Shown here in pieces: positions 21,574-58,362 of a stretch of DNA of 64,000 bases. The notes beneath the pieces are model-generated. The model made no database searches. It was not told the origin of the DNA and saw only the letters and a list, made by a program, of their open reading frames with translations. The stretch is from Tomocerus qinae (lineage: Eukaryota > Arthropoda > Collembola > Entomobryomorpha > Tomoceridae), in the NCBI GenBank assembly GCA_020055645.1, contig CM034549.1, positions 21,969,930 to 22,033,929 on the forward strand. The letters run 5' to 3'. Both the position numbers and the translations under genes were made by a program. Position 1 is the first letter of the stretch. Each line of letters begins with the position of its first letter.

Positions 21574-24500
21574 ATGGAGGAGTCCCATCGTATAACAATT
21601 GGCCCCAGAGGTAAAGAAGAAGAACAATACCTCATATCAAAAGGTCATCTTTTTGAGGACAGTAATGGAGAGTACCGGGACATGTCTACGTAATAACATT
21701 ATTTAACATTTGCTTAGATGCAATATTAATTTTTTTTAATTCCATTTACTTTAGGTTGTTAAAATTAATTCACTTATGTACTAATCATATTGCATAATAT
21801 CTATCTTCACATGACACATGAAGGTAGAAAGTATTCTTAATTGGAGTATAATCGGTATATAAGTGAAATCATGTCTATTAACTAGGCCCACATCTATTAC
21901 TGAAGATAAATGTAAATTACGTCTGTTTCACTTCATATAGGATAATTGACGTTTCCGATGAAGAAAGTTTTTCTGAAAAGCGTAACTACAGCCTCCCTTA
22001 CGTTGGAATTGAAAATATCAATAGTGGAGAATTTAATTATGACTCCTGCGATGATAAAGAGAATGTTCAGCCACCTCTTCCATCGGATAACTCTTACAAT
22101 GAGCAGTAAGTTGAGGTTTTTTAAAAAATAATTATTTTAGCTGGCTGCCGATTGTGTCGACTAACGTTTAAAAAATAAAAGCTGTAAAAATGAAACGAAT
22201 TTAAAATGAATGCTGCCAAAGCCGATATTACTAAGATTACTAGCCTTTTCTATAAAAAAACAGCTTTTTGAAGGATGCAAAGATCAGAATAATTAATCGT
22301 ATTACTGACGAAAGAAATAGTAATAATTTTCATTTTCATTTGAAACTTTAGATTAGAGAAAAATCTTATGGATTCATCTCTTCTAAAAAGCCATCAGATG
22401 TTTGAAAATGAAGGAGCCGTTCGAAGTCATCATACAGTAATGGAAGAGTGTAATGTAGAAGTTCAACAAGGGATGTTGGAAAAGGTCACAGAGCATCATG
22501 AAACACAGGAAATATATCCAGTAGAAGCGCAACCATTACAGGAAGTAGAAATTGAGTATTCAGGAGAAGTTCCATCCCCCCAGAAAATAACGGTCAAGTA
22601 TTCAGCCGAAGTTACAGCTCCAGAGCCTCAGAAAGTAATGGTAGAATGTTCAGTAGAAGTTCCTACTCTTCAGGAAATAGCAGTTGAATGTTCAGTAGTA
22701 GTTCCAGTTCCAGCGCATCAGGAAATTGCGTTCGAAAGTTCAGTAGATGTTCCAGCTCATCAAGAAATTGCATTCGAAAGTTCAGTAAAAGTTCCAGCGC
22801 ATCAGGAAATTACATTTGAAAGTTCAGTAGAAGTTCCAGCGCATCAGGAAATTACGCTCGAAAGTTCAGTAGATGTTCCAGCGCGTGAAGAAATGCAAGA
22901 AGAATGCGCAGCAGAAGTTGTAATGCACCAAAAAATAAATGAAAAATGCGTAATAATAGAAACACACATCCGACAGGATGAAGCTTCAGTTCACGAAGTC
23001 ATCCTAGAAGGACCTAAAAGTAATATTGAAATTGAACAAGCAAAGCCAGACGTAACTGAAAGCGAACTAGGCATACTGGAAGAAAATCTGGAATTTGAAG
23101 TGAGCTCTATGTCCATATCAGGGGTAAACAACAGAAGTTTTACAATTTCTGTGCATGAACCTGATGCAAATGAAATGTCGAATTTGGCCTTACCTGGGTT
23201 AGTGTATTCATATTCACAATTTTTTCTCGTCATAATATATTATTGAGGGTGGCTTTAGTTTACTTACTGTTTTTTTAAATTTAGATATGAACAAATAGTT
23301 TCTGAAGAATGTAGTAATGAAACTCGAGATAAAATAATCCTCCGGGAAGGTTGCAATGGTAATGCTCTAAATGAACAGCTAAAGGAAGCCAGCGATAAAG
23401 TTCAGCAGTTTCAAGAAGAAAATGCCGAAGTAGTAGAAAACTCTATTTTATCTACATCTGAAATCAACAATAGAAGTTTTACCATTTCTGTACATGATTC
23501 TGATGCTTTTGAAACATCGGGTAAAAGCGGGTTAGTTAATTTTTTTTGGTTTTACATAAATTACGCATAATGTACACTTGATCCGACAATGGATGAAACA
23601 AATGCAACAGTGGCATTTTTAATCTCTTTCAATGTTAGTCTGATCTGAGTCTCTAGTCTCAGACTTGCTAGCTCCAATTGAAGCAAATCAAAAAGTCCCT
23701 GGGTAAAATATTGTCCAATTTAATTGTTTTAAAGTTTCGTTCAAACCGGTCAAGCAGTTTCAGTTCAGAGAAATTTTGTTTATGCTTTTCTACTTCCGGG
23801 AGGTGTGTTTTTACAGGTGGCGGTCTGTTAAAATCGAGCCCATGGGCGAAAGCCCGTAGGTTCCGTCAATAAATAATAACATAAAATATCGGAAAGAAAT
23901 GTAAAGTTTTTTACATTTCCCTTAATGTCCGCATAGTATGCTACCATTTGTTGTAATGTAATCCAATATGGAATTACAATTTTTTTTTGCATAGTATCTT
24001 TTTATTCACAATTTCCCCATTCCTGGTTTTGCGGAAGACTACATTTCTTGTCCGCCGGTAAACTATGTTTAACACTTCAAAAGGGTGTAGTTTGGACTCA
24101 AAAATCAGAATAATTGATATCCTACTTTGAGTAACCATTAATGATTTCTTTGACTTCAATTAAGACGAAGTGATCAATACGTGAAGTGGTCGTGTCATGT
24201 TTCGTGGATTGTAAATTGTTTTTTAACCAAATGAACAATATCTTGTTCTATTTATCTGACTTAATGTTTTGAACTTGCGATTTTAATTTTTAGCTCCTCA
24301 GGAGATATGGATGACACAATGACTGCTATAGAGAAATTACTGGCATTGGCTGCCGAGCAGGAAGAATCCGAAATTAATGCAGAGCAAAGTAGCATCTTTG
24401 AAACTTCAGTACCGCTTCGTTCAAGCCAGTTTCCTGCTAATTCAAGCAATCTTATTGAATTAGAATCAGTAGCCATCATCGATCAAGACAATTTAATGGA

Positions 24501-25992
24501 AACCCCCGTAGAGCCGTTTCTTCAAGGTAAAGTGACTGCTTCGTCAACGGGTTCAAGGCACATTGAAACTCCCAAGTCGAGAGAAAATAGAAGTGGACGA
24601 AAGAAGTCTGAAAACTTGATGTATTTTAGCCCAGCACCGCCCTTGGTTCCGAAACGAATACTCGATCTAAAGAAAAAAGGAAAATTCTTTTCTCCAAGCC
24701 CACCTCGTCCACTTCCAAATGCACTTCCCCCTCGTGGTGTTAGGCCGGTGAAAGAAGAGGTTCAAAATGAAAACTTGTTAACTCCGGTCCAGTACTGTGG
24801 CCGAGTTTTGAGAAATGCAAGTTCGGATAAGAAGGAAAAGAAAAAAATTCATTCCGTAAACAATCTTTACGCAGATGTGAATTCCCCTGTGAAGGAATAT
24901 ATTTACGGCAGAGCAACTCCTGCTAGTTTACTAAAATCGAAGTCGACCAATGTCATTAGAAGTCTGCCCGTCCCACAACAAAAACCAGGTCAAGGTTTCC
25001 GACAGTCAGGAATTTCTTCAATTACCCGCATACCAAAGCCAAAATTATCCATTTCTTCTAACTCCAAATTGTCCATTGGAAGAACATCTAATATTAAAGG
25101 CGACTTGGTGGAAATTACCAACCACCCACAAAGTGGAATACCAAAGCCGTCAGCAATAAATAAGTTCAAAAATGACGCCGTCGTTTTTGAAGGATCCTTG
25201 AAGCAACGTGTTCACAATAATAATGACGATACTCTGTCTACCTCCCAAATAAGCGAAGCTGCTTTGCGTCACACAGGTAAATCGTCTTTTCTTGTGATTA
25301 TTTAAAAAATATTTCTACAACACACTTTATTAATTTCTCCAATGTATTTCTTGGCTATAATTGTGTTGGAATATATGAGAGCTGCAGTGTTCAAGTCATT
25401 TTGAAAACTCGGGTTCTTCTTGGGCTGCTGAAAGTACTTCATAAAACATTGGTTTTTCAGAAGAATACTTTTTTGAAAATTCACCGTTTCGAAGTTATCA
25501 CACTTTAAAATTTGTTATTAAAATAATGTTTTATGAAGTACTTTTAGCAGCCCAAGAACCCGTATTTCCAAAATGACTTGGACATTCTGTAGCTATCATA
25601 TATTACAACACAATTCACTTCAATGAGTTCGTATGTACTTATAAATACACTTTTACAATTTAGGTAAATGTTTTTTGTTTGCCATAATCTTTAAACCAAT
25701 CTGATAGTAATTAATAACTGTTATTTTTTAAGTTTTCGTTTAATGTTAATAGTCGTGCATGAGGAATCTTTTCCCAGTTCTGATTTAGTTTTAAGCTCTA
25801 TTGTGACCAGTTAGTTAAATATTAATTTCATTTTCAAAATAAAAATTTAACAATTGATTATTGTTTTAAGGTCTCCGTAATGAAAGTGGAAATGCTTCGT
25901 TACTCCTAGGGAATCCCTTGATGAAAAAATTTTATCCTACGACGCCATCAAAAACGCCAATCAGTACAAATGCCGGCAAAAGAAATGTGTAA
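21574..25992 (+). CDS. Unrecognised 825-aa repeat protein with KEN box and two SxIP-type motifs
   Basis: Six coding exons: 21574-21689, 21941-22105, 22352-23197, 23285-23530, 24294-25276 and 25871-25992 (TAA). All junctions are GT-AG and the frame is uninterrupted for 825 codons. I do not recognise the family. Visible parts: KEN at residues 78-80 (DDKENVQ), a possible APC/C degron; about ten degenerate 14-residue units of the type VPAHQEIAFESSVD at roughly residues 155-290; a motif NNRSFTISVH present near the end of exon 3 and again near the end of exon 4; then a basic Pro/Ser-rich region. That region holds TRIPKPK (702-708) and SGIPKP (738-743), both fitting the EB-protein-binding S/T-x-I-P pattern in a basic context, and CDK-type sites SPVK (655-658) and TPSK (810-813). 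No signal peptide or membrane segment is seen. A cell-cycle-controlled, microtubule plus-end role is inference from short motifs only. The first ATG after the putative acceptor at 21562 was chosen as the start. Confidence 0.85.
22530..22935 (+). repeat. Coding tandem repeat, 42-bp unit
   Basis: Within exon 3 a 42-bp unit encoding 14 residues (VPAHQEI[A/T]FESSV[D/K/E]) is repeated. The four copies at about 22711-22890 are almost identical, flanked by more diverged units on both sides. Two of the units carry a two-residue insertion (VTAPEPQK and VPVPAHQ). Near-identity of the central copies suggests recent expansion or homogenisation, so copy number may vary between individuals. Confidence 0.85.
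23636..23872. mobile_element. Possible transposon-derived segment in intron 4
   Basis: This part of intron 4 (23531-24293) differs in texture from its surroundings. It contains TTCAAACCGGTCAAGCAGTT, a phrase resembling tails of many arthropod interspersed repeats, and the GC-rich hairpin GGGCGAAAGCCC near 23843. No terminal repeats or target-site duplication could be identified. Confidence 0.3.
23896..23919. repeat. 10-bp stem, 4-nt loop hairpin in intron 4
   Basis: GAAATGTAAA at 23896-23905 and TTTACATTTC at 23910-23919 are exact complements separated by GTTT. It lies just beyond the possible transposon-derived segment and could belong to it. Confidence 0.5.
25361..25613. repeat. Inverted repeat (about 90-bp arms) in intron 5
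   Basis: Left arm 25361-25450 and right arm 25525-25613 are inverted copies with scattered mismatches and small indels. The longest matching blocks are AAGTACTTCATAAAACATT and TTGGGCTGCT. The 74-nt spacer is unrelated. It lies wholly in the last intron (25277-25870) of the repeat-protein gene, so the pre-mRNA would form a long imperfect duplex. It may be a fold-back or MITE-like insertion, or a local inverted duplication. Confidence 0.8.
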
Positions 25993-26096: not shown

Positions 26097-26323
26097 TAGT
26101 TTGAACCAAAGTGATTTGAATGTTTCCAGGGCTCCGCCCTCAGGGACAAAGTGACGACATGCTCCAGAAAACTGGTTTCCCCCAACCAGTTCTCCGAATC
26201 GAAATCGGGGGTAAAGTGGTTGGAAAGAACTGGTTGGGGGAAACCAGTTTTCTGGAGCATGTCGTCACCTTGCCCCTGAGAGGCGTAGCCATGGGACCAA
26301 TCAAGGCATCTTGGTTTGAACTA
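26097..26323. mobile_element. Fold-back element with perfect 43-bp inner arms
   Basis: Arms 26151-26193 and 26226-26268 are perfect 43-bp inverted copies around a 32-nt loop. The pairing continues imperfectly outward to ends TAGTTTGAACCAAAG and CTTGGTTTGAACTA, about 227 bp in all. Each inner arm is itself partly palindromic (AACTGGTT, six bases, AACCAGTT). A spurious 76-codon ORF runs through it. It sits about 105 bp past the stop codon of the repeat-protein gene and before that gene's likely poly(A) signal, so it is probably transcribed in the 3' UTR. It resembles a fold-back or MITE insertion; no clear target-site duplication was found. Confidence 0.8.
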
Positions 26324-49205: not shown

Positions 49206-50799
49206 GTAAGTGTAAACGTAGTCTAAGTATTGGTACATTACATTCTATTATTTTTACTTTAGGACCCAGTACCCTACGGAATGATTACACTTTGGTTGTG
49301 CAACTATATATAGAATTCATACCTTTATTTATATATATCTGTAAGACAAGGAGGAAGGAATGCGTAGCGTCGCTCATTTCAACCCGCTCGCTCCGGCTTA
49401 AGTCAGCTCTCCGTGATAGTCCTACTATATATTGTACTGTACTTCGGGTCGATTTCGATCTTGACGACGGACGACTATGTACATATAAAGGGAAACCACA
49501 CCAGGCAGGCAGGCTGGCAGACGAACGATGCTTTGCTTTATTTTGCCATTGCTGGCTGGTGTAAACCGAAGCTGAAAGCTAAGGGAAGTAGGTATACATC
49601 TAGAACGATGCTAACAAGGACCAGAGAAAAGAACAAGAACTTGTGCTTGCTTACTACACAGCTCGACTTTTCTACCCCATTACTACTGTAGTACTCTTTT
49701 CGTTTGGAGTTTCCCCATCTCCATCCATCCTGTGACTCCGACTGTTGTTGTATTGAACTGTGGTGTAGACTCCTAGTCCACATTCCTCCATTCTCACCGA
49801 CTAAGCTTTTCCTTTGAGTTTTTACCTCCGCTCTCTCTCCCCAGTTCTATTTTGTCAAGTTCTTCCTGGCGTAAAATAGGAAAGTCTATTTACTATCTGT
49901 AGTACTATCTGTTGTTCGAGATAGAGGAAAACATTCATCCCAGTTTAGCAGTCTGCAGAGTTCTAGGGCGAGGCATGATTCCTTTTACTTGTCTTGTAAA
50001 TATCTGTACATTGTATTCATTCCCTTCTACATAGTATTCTCCTCTGCCGGCTCATCATACAATTCTATCGCGTCAGACTTGCGAGTGCTGTGCCGTGTCA
50101 TACCACAGGCAGAACCTGAAACATAGAAAAGAAATAGTCACCCTCCTTCTTGCTTAGCCCGTCTGGTTTTCTGACTGTGTACATACATAAATATATAACA
50201 AATGCCTGATTCAATGTAAGAAAAGGTAGGAAACTTCTCCAATATTGAACCCACGACTGTTTTTCAATACACACACAATTCGGTAGTATATTTAGTTTCC
50301 CTTTTAGATTTCCACTACTACAGTTGTTCGTGGCAAAGTCAGTAAGTAGATATAAGGTTTGTATGGGAGAGTTAAGCAAGTACTACTACGTTGTGGGGAA
50401 GTATGTTCGGATATTTATTTCTTACGTACGTTTGTGTCACTGCTACTTTGACTTCTTGTCGGATAGGTTTTCATTGAATATCTGTGTCTATGTAGTGTAT
50501 ACCTAAACTAACCTACCACCTTTCTTAGTAGATTCCACCAACATGTTTATGTTTCTATAAGATATTGCTGTTTTTTTAAGACATACATTATCTGTATACA
50601 GAAAGGTACATGACATCTAAGTAGTATCGGAGTCTGTAGTACATTATGTACATTATGTGTGGAATATTATGTATAGGTATTCATAATGTCTGTCGGTAGG
50701 TACCTACATAATAAGATATAGGAGACAAGGGAAGGCAAGTTTTGTGCAGTAGTATAATAAGTATGGATGTTTCGTTATTCGTAGTGAATAGTGAATATT

Positions 50800-50988
50800 A
50801 TGGTGTTAGAGTTAGCAACTTGCCTTTTGGTTGCATTGCATTGCCTTCCGACTGCCGTACATTCAGAACAGAGAAGGAGAGGACCGAGGAACGAGTGGCA
50901 GAACATGGTATGGCATCCTAGTGCTTTAACTCCCGAAATCCCGGTATACTCCCCAAACGGACGAAAAAAGACTAGCAATCTTCTTTGA
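50800..50988 (+). CDS. Putative neuropeptide precursor, 62 aa, intronless
   Basis: The first ATG after an in-frame stop (TGA at 50785) opens a 62-codon frame ending in TGA. Residues 1-22 (MVLELATCLLVALHCLPTAV then HS) look like a signal peptide, although the n-region has no basic residue. Then come EQ and a tribasic site RRR (25-27), a 26-residue segment (28-53) ending in PVYSPN, the sequence GRKK (54-57), and a five-residue tail TSNLL. Gly followed by a dibasic site is the standard signal for cleavage and C-terminal amidation, so the layout predicts one amidated peptide ending IPVYSPN-amide. I do not match it to a known arthropod peptide family. A poly(A) signal lies 350 bp downstream. Alternatives: a chance ORF, or a first coding exon spliced at the internal ATG|GTATGG. 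Confidence 0.5.
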   Translation: MVLELATCLLVALHCLPTAVHSEQRRRGPRNEWQNMVWHPSALTPEIPVYSPNGRKKTSNLL

Positions 50989-51337
50989 GTCAGTCATGCC
51001 ATAACGTTGGGCTGTTTCACATCGCATCTCGATAGCACTCTCTTTTCATCCCACGTACTTTACAAACGCTACCGTTGCATTACATTATTACTTCACGTTA
51101 ACTTACGGAACGGCTCCACGGAACGTTCAACTCACAACTCTACCATACACCCATCACATCTTCTCACTTCTTTACTTCATCTCGAACATCCTCCTGGAGT
51201 GCAATAGCTGAATAGTAGCACCTTCTTCCTCCATCCTCACCCAGTGTGATAGATGTAGTTTTTCAGACCCTTTTCTTTCCTACCCGAAGAACGGAAGAGA
51301 CAGGACACAACTTCAACCAGGATATACCTAAAATACA

Positions 51338-51343
51338 AATAAA
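51338..51343 (+). terminator. Poly(A) signal candidate for the neuropeptide-like gene
   Basis: AATAAA 350 bp past the stop codon at 50986-50988, the first canonical hexamer on this strand after that ORF that I noticed. Confidence 0.4.
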
Positions 51344-53622
51344 AACGTAACAACATTACACTCAGACACAGGCCAAGTTACGTTAGTTGTACTAAAAACG
51401 ACCCTTTTCACCCATTCATCTGAAAATATGACTGTTGACTCCGGAACTGTAAATACCACTTCAAAGCTATTTACTCATGGATCCATTCAGTTCAGATAGA
51501 TTCGTACATCATTATAATAATGTAAGTACTGTGCAGAAAGAGTGAGTGGAGCCATCGATTAATTTGCTGGAAAATGCCCGGGGTGACACAGTGACTGACA
51601 TGACATGATAGAACATGAGATACTCTCATTTGTCACAGAGTTCCACTCACGGTCAAACGAAGCAAAATTTGGCAAACCTGCGCGATCGTAGAATTGAAAC
51701 CCGAAAATTTTCACCACAGTTTATTATCAGTGCAAGAACATAAACCGGATTAAATTTCACATGTCTTGTCGAGTTAAACACCAAGTTCCCGGATAAATAT
51801 TATCTTGAGAGCATCTGTTGCTAGTAGCGTATCCGAAGCGAAGGTGGAAAGATTATCCCAAGATATACACATAATATTTCTAGGAAAAGTTCGCAGCAAT
51901 CGTATATATATTACTCCGCTATACACACTTCGAATCTACTTACAATGCTAGTAGCAAATTATATGTGAATTTAGACATCTAGTTAGTAATATTACCTATT
52001 ACATGGTTCCATCCACATCTTTCTCTTATCTATATTAGTTAGGTTAGTCGTCTGTAAAAGAGGAAGATGAGGAAACCATGTTAGAGCAAGATTAAATACA
52101 AAGTGTGGCTTATTTGTGTGAAACCAACCTGTTAGGGAGGGACTAGGGACCATGACTAATAAATGCACAAGACTTCACATGATCTTATGATTGGCTTGGA
52201 TGACGTGAGTGACACGGTTTTTGACTCTTTGGGATCAACTTGCCTTTCAGTCTCTTTTTCATCTTCACATTAGTTTTGCTATCTGCCAGCAGTTTGTACA
52301 CACTACTCCGCTAATCTTAAGATAACATTTATCTTCCAACACTCTCTGTGAAAGTTAAAATAAATCCTTGCAAACTCAATAACCTTTACATATACACAAA
52401 AACTTACACTTATTCTTCTTCGAATCGATTTAATCGCAATTTGTGATGTCGTCGTGAAGTGTTGTGCTTATTTTCTTCAAAATCAATTTTTCAAAACCAA
52501 AAAAAAATCAAGACCAAAACCATTCAGTTTTCAATTTTCTTATCTTGCTTTTCTCCGAATCTTAATCGCAAAATATTACTCGAATTATCCAGACTACTGC
52601 GCAAAATTGCTTACCTTTTGCAACACTTTTGAAGAAAAGCCATTAATTAGTGAGTAGTAGTAAACGGGGAAGTAATTTATATCACATGACAGCACAGTCT
52701 ACTTAACAGATAGAAAAGAAAATGAAAATCCTTTGTCTGCGACTGCCTGAGACGAATGAGTGAGTGGACGTAGATAGTAGGTGATGATTTTCATATGAAT
52801 GTGTTCGTATATAATGAATGTGATATATGTATTAACCTTATAGCTACTACAGGATGTATTACGAGATTGAGTTTCTTGGTGAAAACAGATAGTATCCTTT
52901 GTTTATTTCTGTGAAAGTCTGTCCATACACGCTCAGAAAATTTCCTTGTCCTGCTAGATAAAGTGACAATCAATGTGAATAAGGAAAAGCACAAAGAGGA
53001 GTAACTTTTAAAGAGTATGTCAAGGGAGGAGTGGATATAGTATGAGTTTGTGGATATAGTAATGTCATTAATAGGGCTCAACAAAAAGACAAGACATCGG
53101 AAAATAATGGGGACAGGACAAGTGATTGAATTGTAATAGTAAAGTAGAATAGGAACGATATATATAATTACATGTACTCTCAAGTATCATAGTATACTTT
53201 TCTGTTACGTAAGGTGTTTGCGCAGAGGGAGAGAGTGGCTAGATTCATTTTTGTGTTCTGTTGTGATGTGGCTGAAAAAGTTTGTCTGGCGAGGTAAATA
53301 ATAGAAGCTTATATAGAATGGAGGCGGGACGAGTGGTTGATGATGGGCCTTTCAGTCGAGCACAGCAGTTTATCATCGCCGTCGATGTGAGTTGCAAGTG
53401 CAAAGGGTGAAAATCGTAAGACTTGACAATTGAAAATACAAGTGCTACTAACTTATTGCTTTGGAAATTAGATTGTGTAATTGAGTTAATTATCACTGCG
53501 GGATTGGAGGTGACAAGAAATAATTAATTGAAACCTAGTTGGGAGAAAACAAGAAAGCCATAATATACAAAAGTAGGTTTACAAACAAATTAATCCTAAC
53601 AAAGAGTGTGGAAGACAAAAGG
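51344..53622. other. Spacer between the neuropeptide-like ORF and the ERG-type channel gene
   Basis: No gene is supported. The stretch at 52720-53500 is strongly purine-rich on the plus strand, which creates a long minus-strand open frame (52791-53183) of low complexity. The promoter and any 5' untranslated exons of the channel gene probably lie in the right part. Confidence 0.4.
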
Positions 53623-53706
53623 ATGGAATCATCAGCGAGTTTGTTGTGTCCAGTGAAGTTGCTTGGCTCTTCACTCAGAGTGAAAGTTTTCCGTGTTATC
53701 TACTAG
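53623..53706 (+). other. Upstream ORF (27 aa) in the probable 5' leader of the ERG-type gene
   Basis: ATG at 53623 opens MESSASLLCPVKLLGSSLRV... and stops with TAG at 53704-53706, 64 bp before the channel start codon. If the leader is unspliced here, ribosomes would meet this ORF first, which could dampen channel translation. It is also possible that transcription starts downstream of it. Confidence 0.35.
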
Positions 53707-53770: not shown

Positions 53771-56700
53771 ATGCCTATTCGCAAAGGTCATGTTGCCCCT
53801 CAAACAACGCTCATCGAGTCTGTTATTCGAAAGTTTGACAGCCAGAGTAAGTTCAATTTTCCTAGTGATAACAAAGGATAGTCCAGCCCATTTTACTCGT
53901 GCATTCTTTACTGTCTCTGACTTTGCTTTTGATTTTGTACCTAGCCATACTATTATGGGCCTGTAATATTTATACACTTTACTTACCTAGCTCTATCTAT
54001 TCCTGGCGTTGTTCGATGCAATACATTGCATGCACGTTACCTTTCCCTTGCATCATATTTTATTAGTCTATATAGGCAACTGGCCTGGTTGGGTTTATCT
54101 TAAGTCCTGTCTAAACATATCTATATGCTTAGGTATTCAAAGTATATATACCTAGGAGTAGTATCTCAACTGAGTTGGATTGGGGAATCGCTTTTCACAA
54201 TGTATTATTATTACCTTTATACTAGTAAGTAGTAGCCTGCCTTGTCTTTTTACCGTGACTTGTTCCGTTACCTTGCTCCATATTCATAAAGTCAAGTCAA
54301 CTCAAGCCAAGCCCAGTCAGAATGTTTTTCATGTTCTGTTTCCTTCTCTAAGTGCAATTTTACCAGTAGTAACATAAGTTGAGAATTTTAATGCGCTGCA
54401 CTTATATTTTATGATAAAATATACTATCATGCTATACATAACTCGCTCCTAAGTAATGTTACCTAACAAATACAGAAAAACTACTTATATTCAAAAATCA
54501 AGACATGATTTTCAGGGATTTCAAAGTAAAATCCTTTTTATTTGCATGAATTTTTTTTGCTTTAGCCCTACCTTGTCTCCCGACCCTTTTCCCTTAAAGT
54601 TTTACTTTCTCCGAATGTTGACACAAGTATTCACAGATAGATGTTTACATTGCGCAAACAGTCTTATCTTCTCTGACGTTTTTTTCAAATGGCTCAAAAA
54701 CCTCATCCTCTTTCAACACAAAGAAACTTTACTTCTAAGTAAATATACAGCCAAATAAGCCTTGTCTTCCTTTTCCTACATTTTAGTTGACGTGTTATTT
54801 CTTGGACTACTTACTTATACCCCATTTTTACTTACATAGTATGTATTTTCTATACTCTAGTGCATGTTGATATGTCAAATAAATACATTCCACAAAATGA
54901 ATTCCATTCCTGGAAAATTGTAACTCATGCTACAACCTATCCTTTGTCCTCTTCAGAAAGCACCAGATACTACTTACACAAATGTAATCTTACACAATCT
55001 ATCTATAAATCAAGATACCTCGTTTTCAATTTCTTAAATATAAAACTACTCAACTTGAAGCTACCCATTCGAAAACCTGCCTCTAAGCCTGCAGTTATTA
55101 CAATGAATGTAATTCAATATGTCGTGAAGGACGTATCTAAGTACATTTACTTAACAATATCGTATCTATCTTTTCTCTGTCATGAGCATTTAGTAGTATA
55201 GTGATGCATTATATAACTGTGTTGTCTAATTGTGTCAATACAGCCGTTTATCAACAAAAGAACTTAAAAGCCTTATTATTCCTATGTTTTATCTATGTAC
55301 ATACATTACGCACTGAAGCAAGGGAATATTGGGAATAGCCTTCAATTCAAATGTAGTTTGTCGTTTGCATGCGTGCCTACCAACCTGGATTGTCCAGAAA
55401 AAACTGGGAAGCTCATAGGCTTATTATATGACATACAAATGGTCAAATTAAATTCCATCGATCAATGGCAGCCATTGAAATTGAAACTATTGTATTATTA
55501 CTAAGCTAAAAGTAAGTAAGTAGTATGTACTTAATAGGACAAAGCCACGAGTTGTCCTATCAAATCAATATTAGATTGCCTCAATTTCGCGTGCCCCTAT
55601 CAAAACTGTATACGTAAGTAAAATGTTATTAGAATCCTTACCGTATTTGCAAAAGTCAGCGACTGAAGTATCAGTCTTTTATTGTTTCTTAAAAACACGT
55701 GCTTGTACAGGTGCAGAAAATAATATTGGGTCGAAATAAGAGTATAATTATTTAACACTAGCTTTTGCGCCAAGAAATTTAAATATTTCTGTCAGTAATA
55801 TTAGATTATTAATCATAAAATTAATAGATCTATATTTTCAATGGTCTTAAACATTTTTGACATAGTTTTGAATTTACAACTTTGATACAATCATACCCAT
55901 TTCCTCCAAGGCTTAGCCCCAATAACCGAGAGAGAAGAAATTTTTTTCGCAAAAAGCTAAAATGTTTCTCGCTCCGTGCTATAATAAATTGTCTTAGGGC
56001 TACTTATGACTCATTTTTTGGCCTCTAGTTAGGTTAACATACGTAATTACGTAAGACAATGCATCAATAAATTATAAAGTGTTGCACACTATAAATTGTT
56101 GATGCTACAATTATCCCATAATTTAAAACAATAAAAGTAATTTGTTGATAAATACAGTCATTTAACGCATTACTGCGTACCAATGTAAAAAAAGTTCTTT
56201 ATTACAGGTAATACGGTAACTAGTTCGATTTAGAGTATTTCTTGAAGTGTTCTTAAGTAGTATTTTGAGGTATATGGTTTGACTTAACATGTATCCACAC
56301 ACATGTACTGAATCGTTGTCTAATGTAGAAGAGTATGCAGTAGTAGTAAGTAGTAGTGCACAGTTCATATTATTATATCTTAATTTCCTATACTGTCATT
56401 AAAACATAGGCATGTGTATCATTGTGTGTAGGTAGACAATGTCAACAATACAAGTCAGTTGAATTCAGAAAGGTGAACTCTGAACTACATATATGGAATG
56501 TATAATAGATAGTATTATACATGAATGTAAAGAATAGTAACTTGTTCAGAACACATGAGACCGGCATGTTTTTATGGAACAGCTGTGCGTTTGTGTGGCA
56601 CAAAGTGTATTATGTATCCGTGGCCACGAAGGAAATTAAGTCGACATATGAAGGTAGAATGGAACACTTGAATGACTTGCGATGGGCTTATTGATTAAGT

Positions 56701-58362
56701 GAATGAATGTAAGCGGACAAAGTAAGTAAGCATCAGGCGAGACGCAAGTCGGTGAAAGTAGATTTCTAGTGAAAAGCATTTACGAATGTATAGAGAGCCA
56801 AGGTAAAGGTAATGAACACACGACATATAAAGGATGCTATAGAAAACCACTTGAGAAAATAGAACACCACTATAAAGTAGACCTAATTATAGGCTACGTA
56901 CAAAACTGTACCTGCATAAAAAATCTAGAGCTGAGTTGACTGAGATAGAGTTATCTTTGAAATAATAGCTAAGGGTACATAGTAATTCTCTGTGAGCCAT
57001 TTGTAACTATTATCAGACAAGAATCAATTTTGGCATGTGGAAATGTATAGATACACGAGTGAGCAAATTAGTGTAACCTAATCAGAAATATTACTACTGG
57101 AGTGAGTAATAAGGACACATACCTCAGACGCATGGTGCTTATGGTGTGATGCTATTTATTAGTGATGTGTAAATGTGTGTGCTGTGTAGTCGCTTGGGAC
57201 AAGACATTAGAGAAGAGACTTGGCTTTAAACCATTATAATATTAAATTACTAGTGAAGCTTACTTATGCGCTTATAATAGAGTTGATTTAAGCTTGGGCT
57301 GCAGACAGTTATGTTATGATTATTACTGGTTTCTCTTTTGTGTGCTTTATAAATAAATAGTACAGAGTTATATACATTCAGAGAGTTTGGCACGAAGACG
57401 CTAATAATACGGAGATGGGATGATAATGTGCTTTTATGTGTTATATTAGCAGTATAGGCTAAAAGAATTGTAAATCTAATATGCATTGAAGCAAGGAGGT
57501 ATATGGATGCCAATGCCAACGGTATGCATGTCGTGCTCGTCAGTTAGCGCACTTAAGTGTTGGTTCACTACTAACAACATAACAGTGCCGGTGGTAATGG
57601 CTACTATCTTTCAGCATGCAAGCAACGCAGTTGCCACTCTTCTGGTTATACTATAAGAGTATGACTTAAGTAATTTAAGTGTGTCACAGCTTAGATGCTT
57701 TATGTGTAAAGAGGTGAGTGAGTTGAGTGGAATGAGTAAGTGAGAGAGTCTCCTAAACTAAAATATCAAACAAGAAAGAGAAAATTGCTGGCTGGGCTCC
57801 CTTTTAAATAGTAAAATGTACCTACACTTTGCAAAACCGACACTCAGCAAAGAAAATGAAACGGGGAGGATAGGAAACGAGATAGAAATACAAAACCGTA
57901 CGTACTTATTTAGGTAGGTATATCCTTAACTGCCGTATATAGCCCAGCTTCCTTTTCCTTTGGCCCTAAGCACAAATTAGATCTCGTGTGGGTATATATA
58001 AATTATATGCACCACTCACTTAAGCTGCTTTATTGCCTCGTGCTGATGCTCATGTTTTATCGGTACTCTCTCGACTGTGTACACAGTACTTATGGACTTT
58101 TACAGATAAGTGAATAATTGATGTGTTGCAGATCGGAGCTACATTCTGGGCAATGCCCAGTCGCCGGATTGTGCCATTATTTACTGCAGTGACAATTTTT
58201 GTCGGCTGAGTGGATTCAGCCGAGCAGAGGTGATGCAGAAACCAGCAGTGTGCACCTTCCTCCATGGACCACTCACATCTTCATCCGTCGTCTCGCAGAT
58301 TCGCCAGAGTCTCTTGGGTGAAGAGGAAAAGCATTTAGAAGTGCTCTTTTACAAGAAAGACG
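53771..58362 (+). CDS. sei: ERG-type voltage-gated potassium channel (KCNH2/seizure family), first two coding exons
   Basis: Exon 1, 53771-53846, encodes MPIRKGHVAPQTTLIESVIR followed by KFDSQ. This is the PAS-cap of ERG channels, matching hERG [20 protein letters not shown]. Exon 2, 58132-58362, encodes the PAS core: YILGNAQ, CAIIYCSDNFCRLSGFSRAE, VMQKPAVCTFLHGP and HLEVLFYKKDG. The junction codon (A + AT) restores the frame, and exon 2 ends in phase 1. ERG channels are tetrameric; the N-terminal PAS domain binds the cyclic-nucleotide-binding homology domain and slows deactivation. An in-frame TGA at 53681 and the fit to the family fix the start at 53771. The next exons (rest of PAS, membrane domain) are not found in the remaining 5.6 kb and must lie beyond the right edge. 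The exon 2 donor GTAGAA is weak. The PAS sequence favours ERG over EAG or ELK types. Confidence 0.93.
53847..58131 (+). other. sei: Intron 1 of the ERG-type channel gene (4.3 kb)
   Basis: Donor GTAAGTTC and acceptor TGTGTTGCAG. The left part, about 54.2-55.1 kb, is pyrimidine-rich on the plus strand, which explains its long low-complexity open frames. A stretch at 56.5-57.2 kb is richer in G and A. No embedded gene or recognisable repeat. Confidence 0.75.

Follow-up and report, generated by a model that had tools for sequence, protein, structure and literature searches.

The question raised by this locus is whether a 62-residue open reading frame (ORF), which has the outward form of an amidated neuropeptide precursor, encodes a secreted peptide or is a reading frame that arose by chance. 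We analyzed it within the whole 64,000-nucleotide stretch of Tomocerus qinae DNA in which it lies, hereafter the window. The 62 residues and the stop codon that follows them are a direct translation of the forward strand (Table 1). The preliminary description of this DNA had listed a hydrophobic leader, a tribasic site, a 26-residue peptide, Gly-Arg-Lys-Lys and a tiny tail, and translation reproduces each of these elements in that order. RRR and GRKK are separated by 26 residues, and the five-residue tail TSNLL leads from GRKK to the stop. At the level of motifs, RRR before the 26-mer and GRKK after it represent both of the site types found in amidated neuropeptide precursors. An in-frame TAG TGA lies 18 to 13 bases 5' of ATG 50800, so that the ORF cannot extend 5' and does not represent the end of some longer frame. 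Among the 156 ORFs of 40–150 aa in the window, it is the only one with the full anatomy.

Table 1. Positions in the window of the ORF, its parts and the neighboring features.
Feature	Position	Strand	Basis
62-residue ORF	50800..50988 (stop included)	+	Translation; product MVLELATCLLVALHCLPTAVHSEQRRRGPRNEWQNMVWHPSALTPEIPVYSPNGRKKTSNLL
Signal-like leader, residues 1–22, predicted cut AVHS/EQ	50800..50865	+	Reconstructed von Heijne matrix, 9.24
Tribasic RRR, residues 25–27	50872..50880	+	Translation
26-residue segment, residues 28–53, GPRNEWQNMVW...IPVYSPN	50881..50958	+	Translation
GRKK, amidation-like site, residues 54–57	50959..50970	+	Translation
Overlapping 52-aa ORF, other frame, upstream start	50763..50921	+	A at −3, G at +4
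GC-rich block holding the ORF	50800..51299		GC 0.458 vs 0.349, the mean of 500-base windows
Probable first coding exon, ERG/seizure-type (KCNH) K+ channel	53771..53846	+	tblastn with ERG-type N-terminal query; donor by eye
Probable second coding exon (PAS domain), same channel gene	58132..58362	+	PAS matches; in-frame AG and GT taken as ends

The leader was scored with the 1986 eukaryotic matrix of von Heijne in reconstructed form (15 position columns, each summing to 161; usual cut-off 3.5), which was used in place of SignalP. By this measure the leader, cut between residues 22 and 23, scores 9.24, the highest value among the 156 ORFs of 40–150 aa in the window, of which 23 lie at or above 3.5. 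Across 1000 simulated windows, 9.24 was reached by 0.35 ORFs per window. By its matrix score the leader qualifies as a signal peptide of the kind an amidated precursor carries, with an n-region that is acidic and not basic. The absence of positive charge there had already been conceded in the preliminary description, and Glu occupies position 4. The leader is good despite this Glu and the lack of any basic residue in the n-region.

How often would chance assemble the same parts? We searched random DNA for a leader, a basic pair and, 5–45 residues further on, G[KR][KR] with no more than 15 residues of tail behind it. With a crude definition of a hydrophobic leader, this anatomy appeared in 18 of 400 simulated 64-kb windows (order-3), and with a signal score of at least 3.5 it appeared in 19 of 1000 (order-3 Markov). 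At the same score, an order-4 null yielded 208 ORFs with the anatomy in 8000 simulated 64-kb windows, and a GC-rich null, built from 11 further blocks with a GC content of 40% or higher, yielded 351 in 4000. At a score of at least 9.2, a threshold chosen post hoc and close to the ORF's own 9.24, there were 3 ORFs in the 8000 order-4 windows and 6 in the 4000 GC-rich windows, which corresponds to one per 2667 or one per 667 random windows at the ORF's score level. Because the ORF itself set this threshold, a fair chance figure lies between the two thresholds. By extrapolation from these rates, a gigabase would hold 6 to 23 chance ORFs of the ORF's own score level; with the 3.5 threshold the figure would be about 400 or higher. 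The anatomy is unusual for a single window and not unusual for a genome scan; the preliminary description had itself noted that short ORFs arise by chance. The extrapolation also provides a yardstick: at this quality, chance would supply several to about 20 ORFs with every precursor hallmark in each gigabase, and therefore the anatomy alone is not sufficient ground for reporting a gene.

The surroundings of the ORF bear on both possibilities. The block that holds it ranks fifth by GC content of 1271 500-base windows (45.8% vs a mean of 34.9%) and can be a promoter, a 5' untranslated region or an exon. In such a block stop codons would be rarer and codons for Arg, Gly, Ala and Pro commoner, which would raise the chance that one short frame combines a leader with clusters of basic residues and a Gly-basic site. 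Downstream lies what is probably the start of an ERG/seizure-type potassium-channel gene. An ERG-type N-terminal query matches 53771–53848 (tblastn, E = 9.31e-14), and GTAAGT directly after base 53846 forms the donor of this exon. The second exon matches the human ERG PAS domain 1byw_A (E = 1.7e-27) and Pfam PAS_9 (6.3e-10), and the AG before 58132 joins with the donor at 53846 in phase to read ...FDSQN RSYILGNAQ.... With these two exons identified, the ORF is placed 2.8 kb 5' of the start of the channel gene, on the same strand. The intron between the exons is of phase 1 and about 4.3 kb long; a channel query stretch used to look for a third exon had no match in the window.

We also asked whether the frame is written like a coding sequence. 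Its codon log-likelihood ranks 60th of the 158 ORFs of 40–400 aa and its synonymous choice alone ranks 148th, in a test that is weak: the training set was small (790 codons in all; of its five likely exon pieces, two belong to the channel and three to ORFs at 22–25 kb), most of its codons came from the 22–25 kb ORFs, which have no family match above cut-off, and these same ORFs are also among the 158 ranked. The codon usage of the ORF is unlike that of the window's likely exons, which is weak evidence. The overlapping 52-aa frame that starts at 50763 ranks 6th by codon log-likelihood, so this measure means little here.

ATG 50800 has A at −3 and G at +4, and ATG 50763 is identical to it in both positions. 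The 300 bases 5' of the ORF contain nine ATGs; from the one at 50767, a frame of five codons runs to the TAG of the in-frame TAG TGA. A scanning ribosome would have free access to 50800 only if the transcript began after 50767; otherwise leaky scanning would be needed. No weight was given to a TATA-like TATAAG at 50556, 244 bases 5' of the ATG, because seven of the nine upstream ATGs fall between it and the ORF. The AATAAA at 51338, downstream, was discarded as gene evidence because the two strands of the window together carry 182 copies of this pattern. This count compares with 141 expected from shuffles and 179 in the largest of 100 shuffles. A scan for bacterial promoters and terminators was set aside as irrelevant to an animal gene.

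Pfam returned no match above cut-off for the ORF, the sole row being DUF5527 (E = 0.052, 13.6 bits vs a cut-off of 28.5); PDB sequences gave no match at E up to 10; and the strings searched, from the end and interior of the peptide, had no relevant match in the papers covered. The preliminary description could assign the peptide to no known family. A ghrelin acyltransferase paper returned by the string search is unrelated, and the string 'Namide' is absent from the main text of PMC4237046 (termite and locust neuropeptides). Pattern searches of viral and prokaryote contigs produced 19 and 261 matches, none of them confirmed as a relative; since these collections are viral and prokaryote, not animal, the null there was not counted against conservation. 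Neither the Rfam nor the tRNA scan returned a match.

In layout, the ORF resembles the general arthropod type of single-peptide amidated precursor, to which corazonin-, SIFamide- and allatotropin-like precursors belong: it is likewise short, with a leader, a basic site and a Gly-basic amidation site. It differs from them in having no Pfam match and in being known from sequence alone. To our knowledge, no known family has a -YSPN-amide end. The YSPN before Gly recalls the FSPN of adipokinetic-hormone-type (AKH) peptides, which are 8–10 residues long, follow directly after the leader, begin with pGlu and carry Trp near the end. In contrast, the peptide of this ORF is 26 residues long, does not directly follow the leader and lacks both an N-terminal Gln and a Trp before the amide. 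With no Pfam match either, membership of the AKH family was rejected.

Read at face value, the ORF would be a lineage-specific amidated neuropeptide precursor: a single-copy gene with one coding exon, just 5' of the ERG/seizure channel. Signal peptidase would cut after residue 22, a convertase would cleave behind RRR and inside GRKK, and the amide nitrogen would come from Gly54, leaving GPRNEWQNMVWHPSALTPEIPVYSPN-amide, a 26-mer of no known family that ends IPVYSPN-amide and would act on a presumed receptor. Were this reading true, the signalling peptide would be new and its receptor an orphan still to be found. We regard this reading as unlikely. The complete anatomy in correct order, the signal score and the rarity of such an ORF in both nulls speak for it, but the anatomy was itself the selection criterion, the n-region is acidic with no basic residue, the codon usage is unlike that of the likely exons, another frame overlaps from upstream, and the Pfam, PDB and literature-string searches gave no match. 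The tests beyond anatomy thus lean weakly against a precursor, and of the preliminary proposal of a neuropeptide gene the anatomy and the matrix-scored leader stand, while codon usage, the overlapping frame and the lack of a family match weigh weakly against it.

Two further explanations take the channel gene or splicing into account. The ORF could belong to a 5' untranslated exon of the ERG-type channel and act there as an upstream ORF, whose effect would at most be to adjust how the channel is translated; its peptide would be irrelevant. Like upstream ORFs of animal 5' untranslated regions, it is short and lies on the same strand 5' of a gene, here 2.8 kb from the channel ATG and in a GC-rich block, and acceptor-like sites at 53679 and 53707, just 5' of that ATG, could mark a spliced leader. 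Unlike them, it lies in a block whose transcription is putative, and no donor of at least 6/7 was seen at or just past the ORF, the only one found being at 51522, in a weak consensus scan that missed the channel's own exon 1 donor. We consider this explanation improbable. It is more improbable still that a longer secreted protein has its first exon here, with a splice within the ORF that removes the GRKK end before translation: the leader is strong and a donor-like ATG/GTATGG can be seen in frame in the letters, but as a donor it is a weak match that the consensus scan did not pick up, and no downstream exon was identified. In our judgment the ORF probably arose by chance in the non-coding DNA 5' of the channel gene and gives rise to no peptide, and it may perhaps lie inside the promoter or 5' untranslated region of that gene. 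Random sequence gives the anatomy under both the order-4 and GC-rich nulls and at both thresholds, the codon usage departs from that of the likely exons, an overlapping frame and nine ATGs lie upstream, no relative was found in Pfam, PDB or the searched strings, and the ORF sits 2.8 kb 5' of the channel start in the same orientation. Against a chance frame stand the best leader of 156 ORFs, the rarity per window of the anatomy at this score, the fair start context, a GC rank such as an exon might have, and the weakness of the codon test.

Elsewhere in the window, the forward-strand ORF at 22368–23246 has 292 codons and contains a tandem repeat with a period of 42 bases (5.6 copies, 22644–22884) encoding a repeated unit of the PAHQEI type. 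It is followed by further long ORFs at 23259–23570 and 24307–25305, with no Pfam match above cut-off. Just downstream of the latter, an inverted repeat at 25417–25558 has arms of 39 bases that are 92% complementary and 64 bases apart. A second inverted repeat, at 26139–26280, has arms of 55 bases that are 96% complementary and 32 bases apart, and could be a small hairpin-like mobile element.
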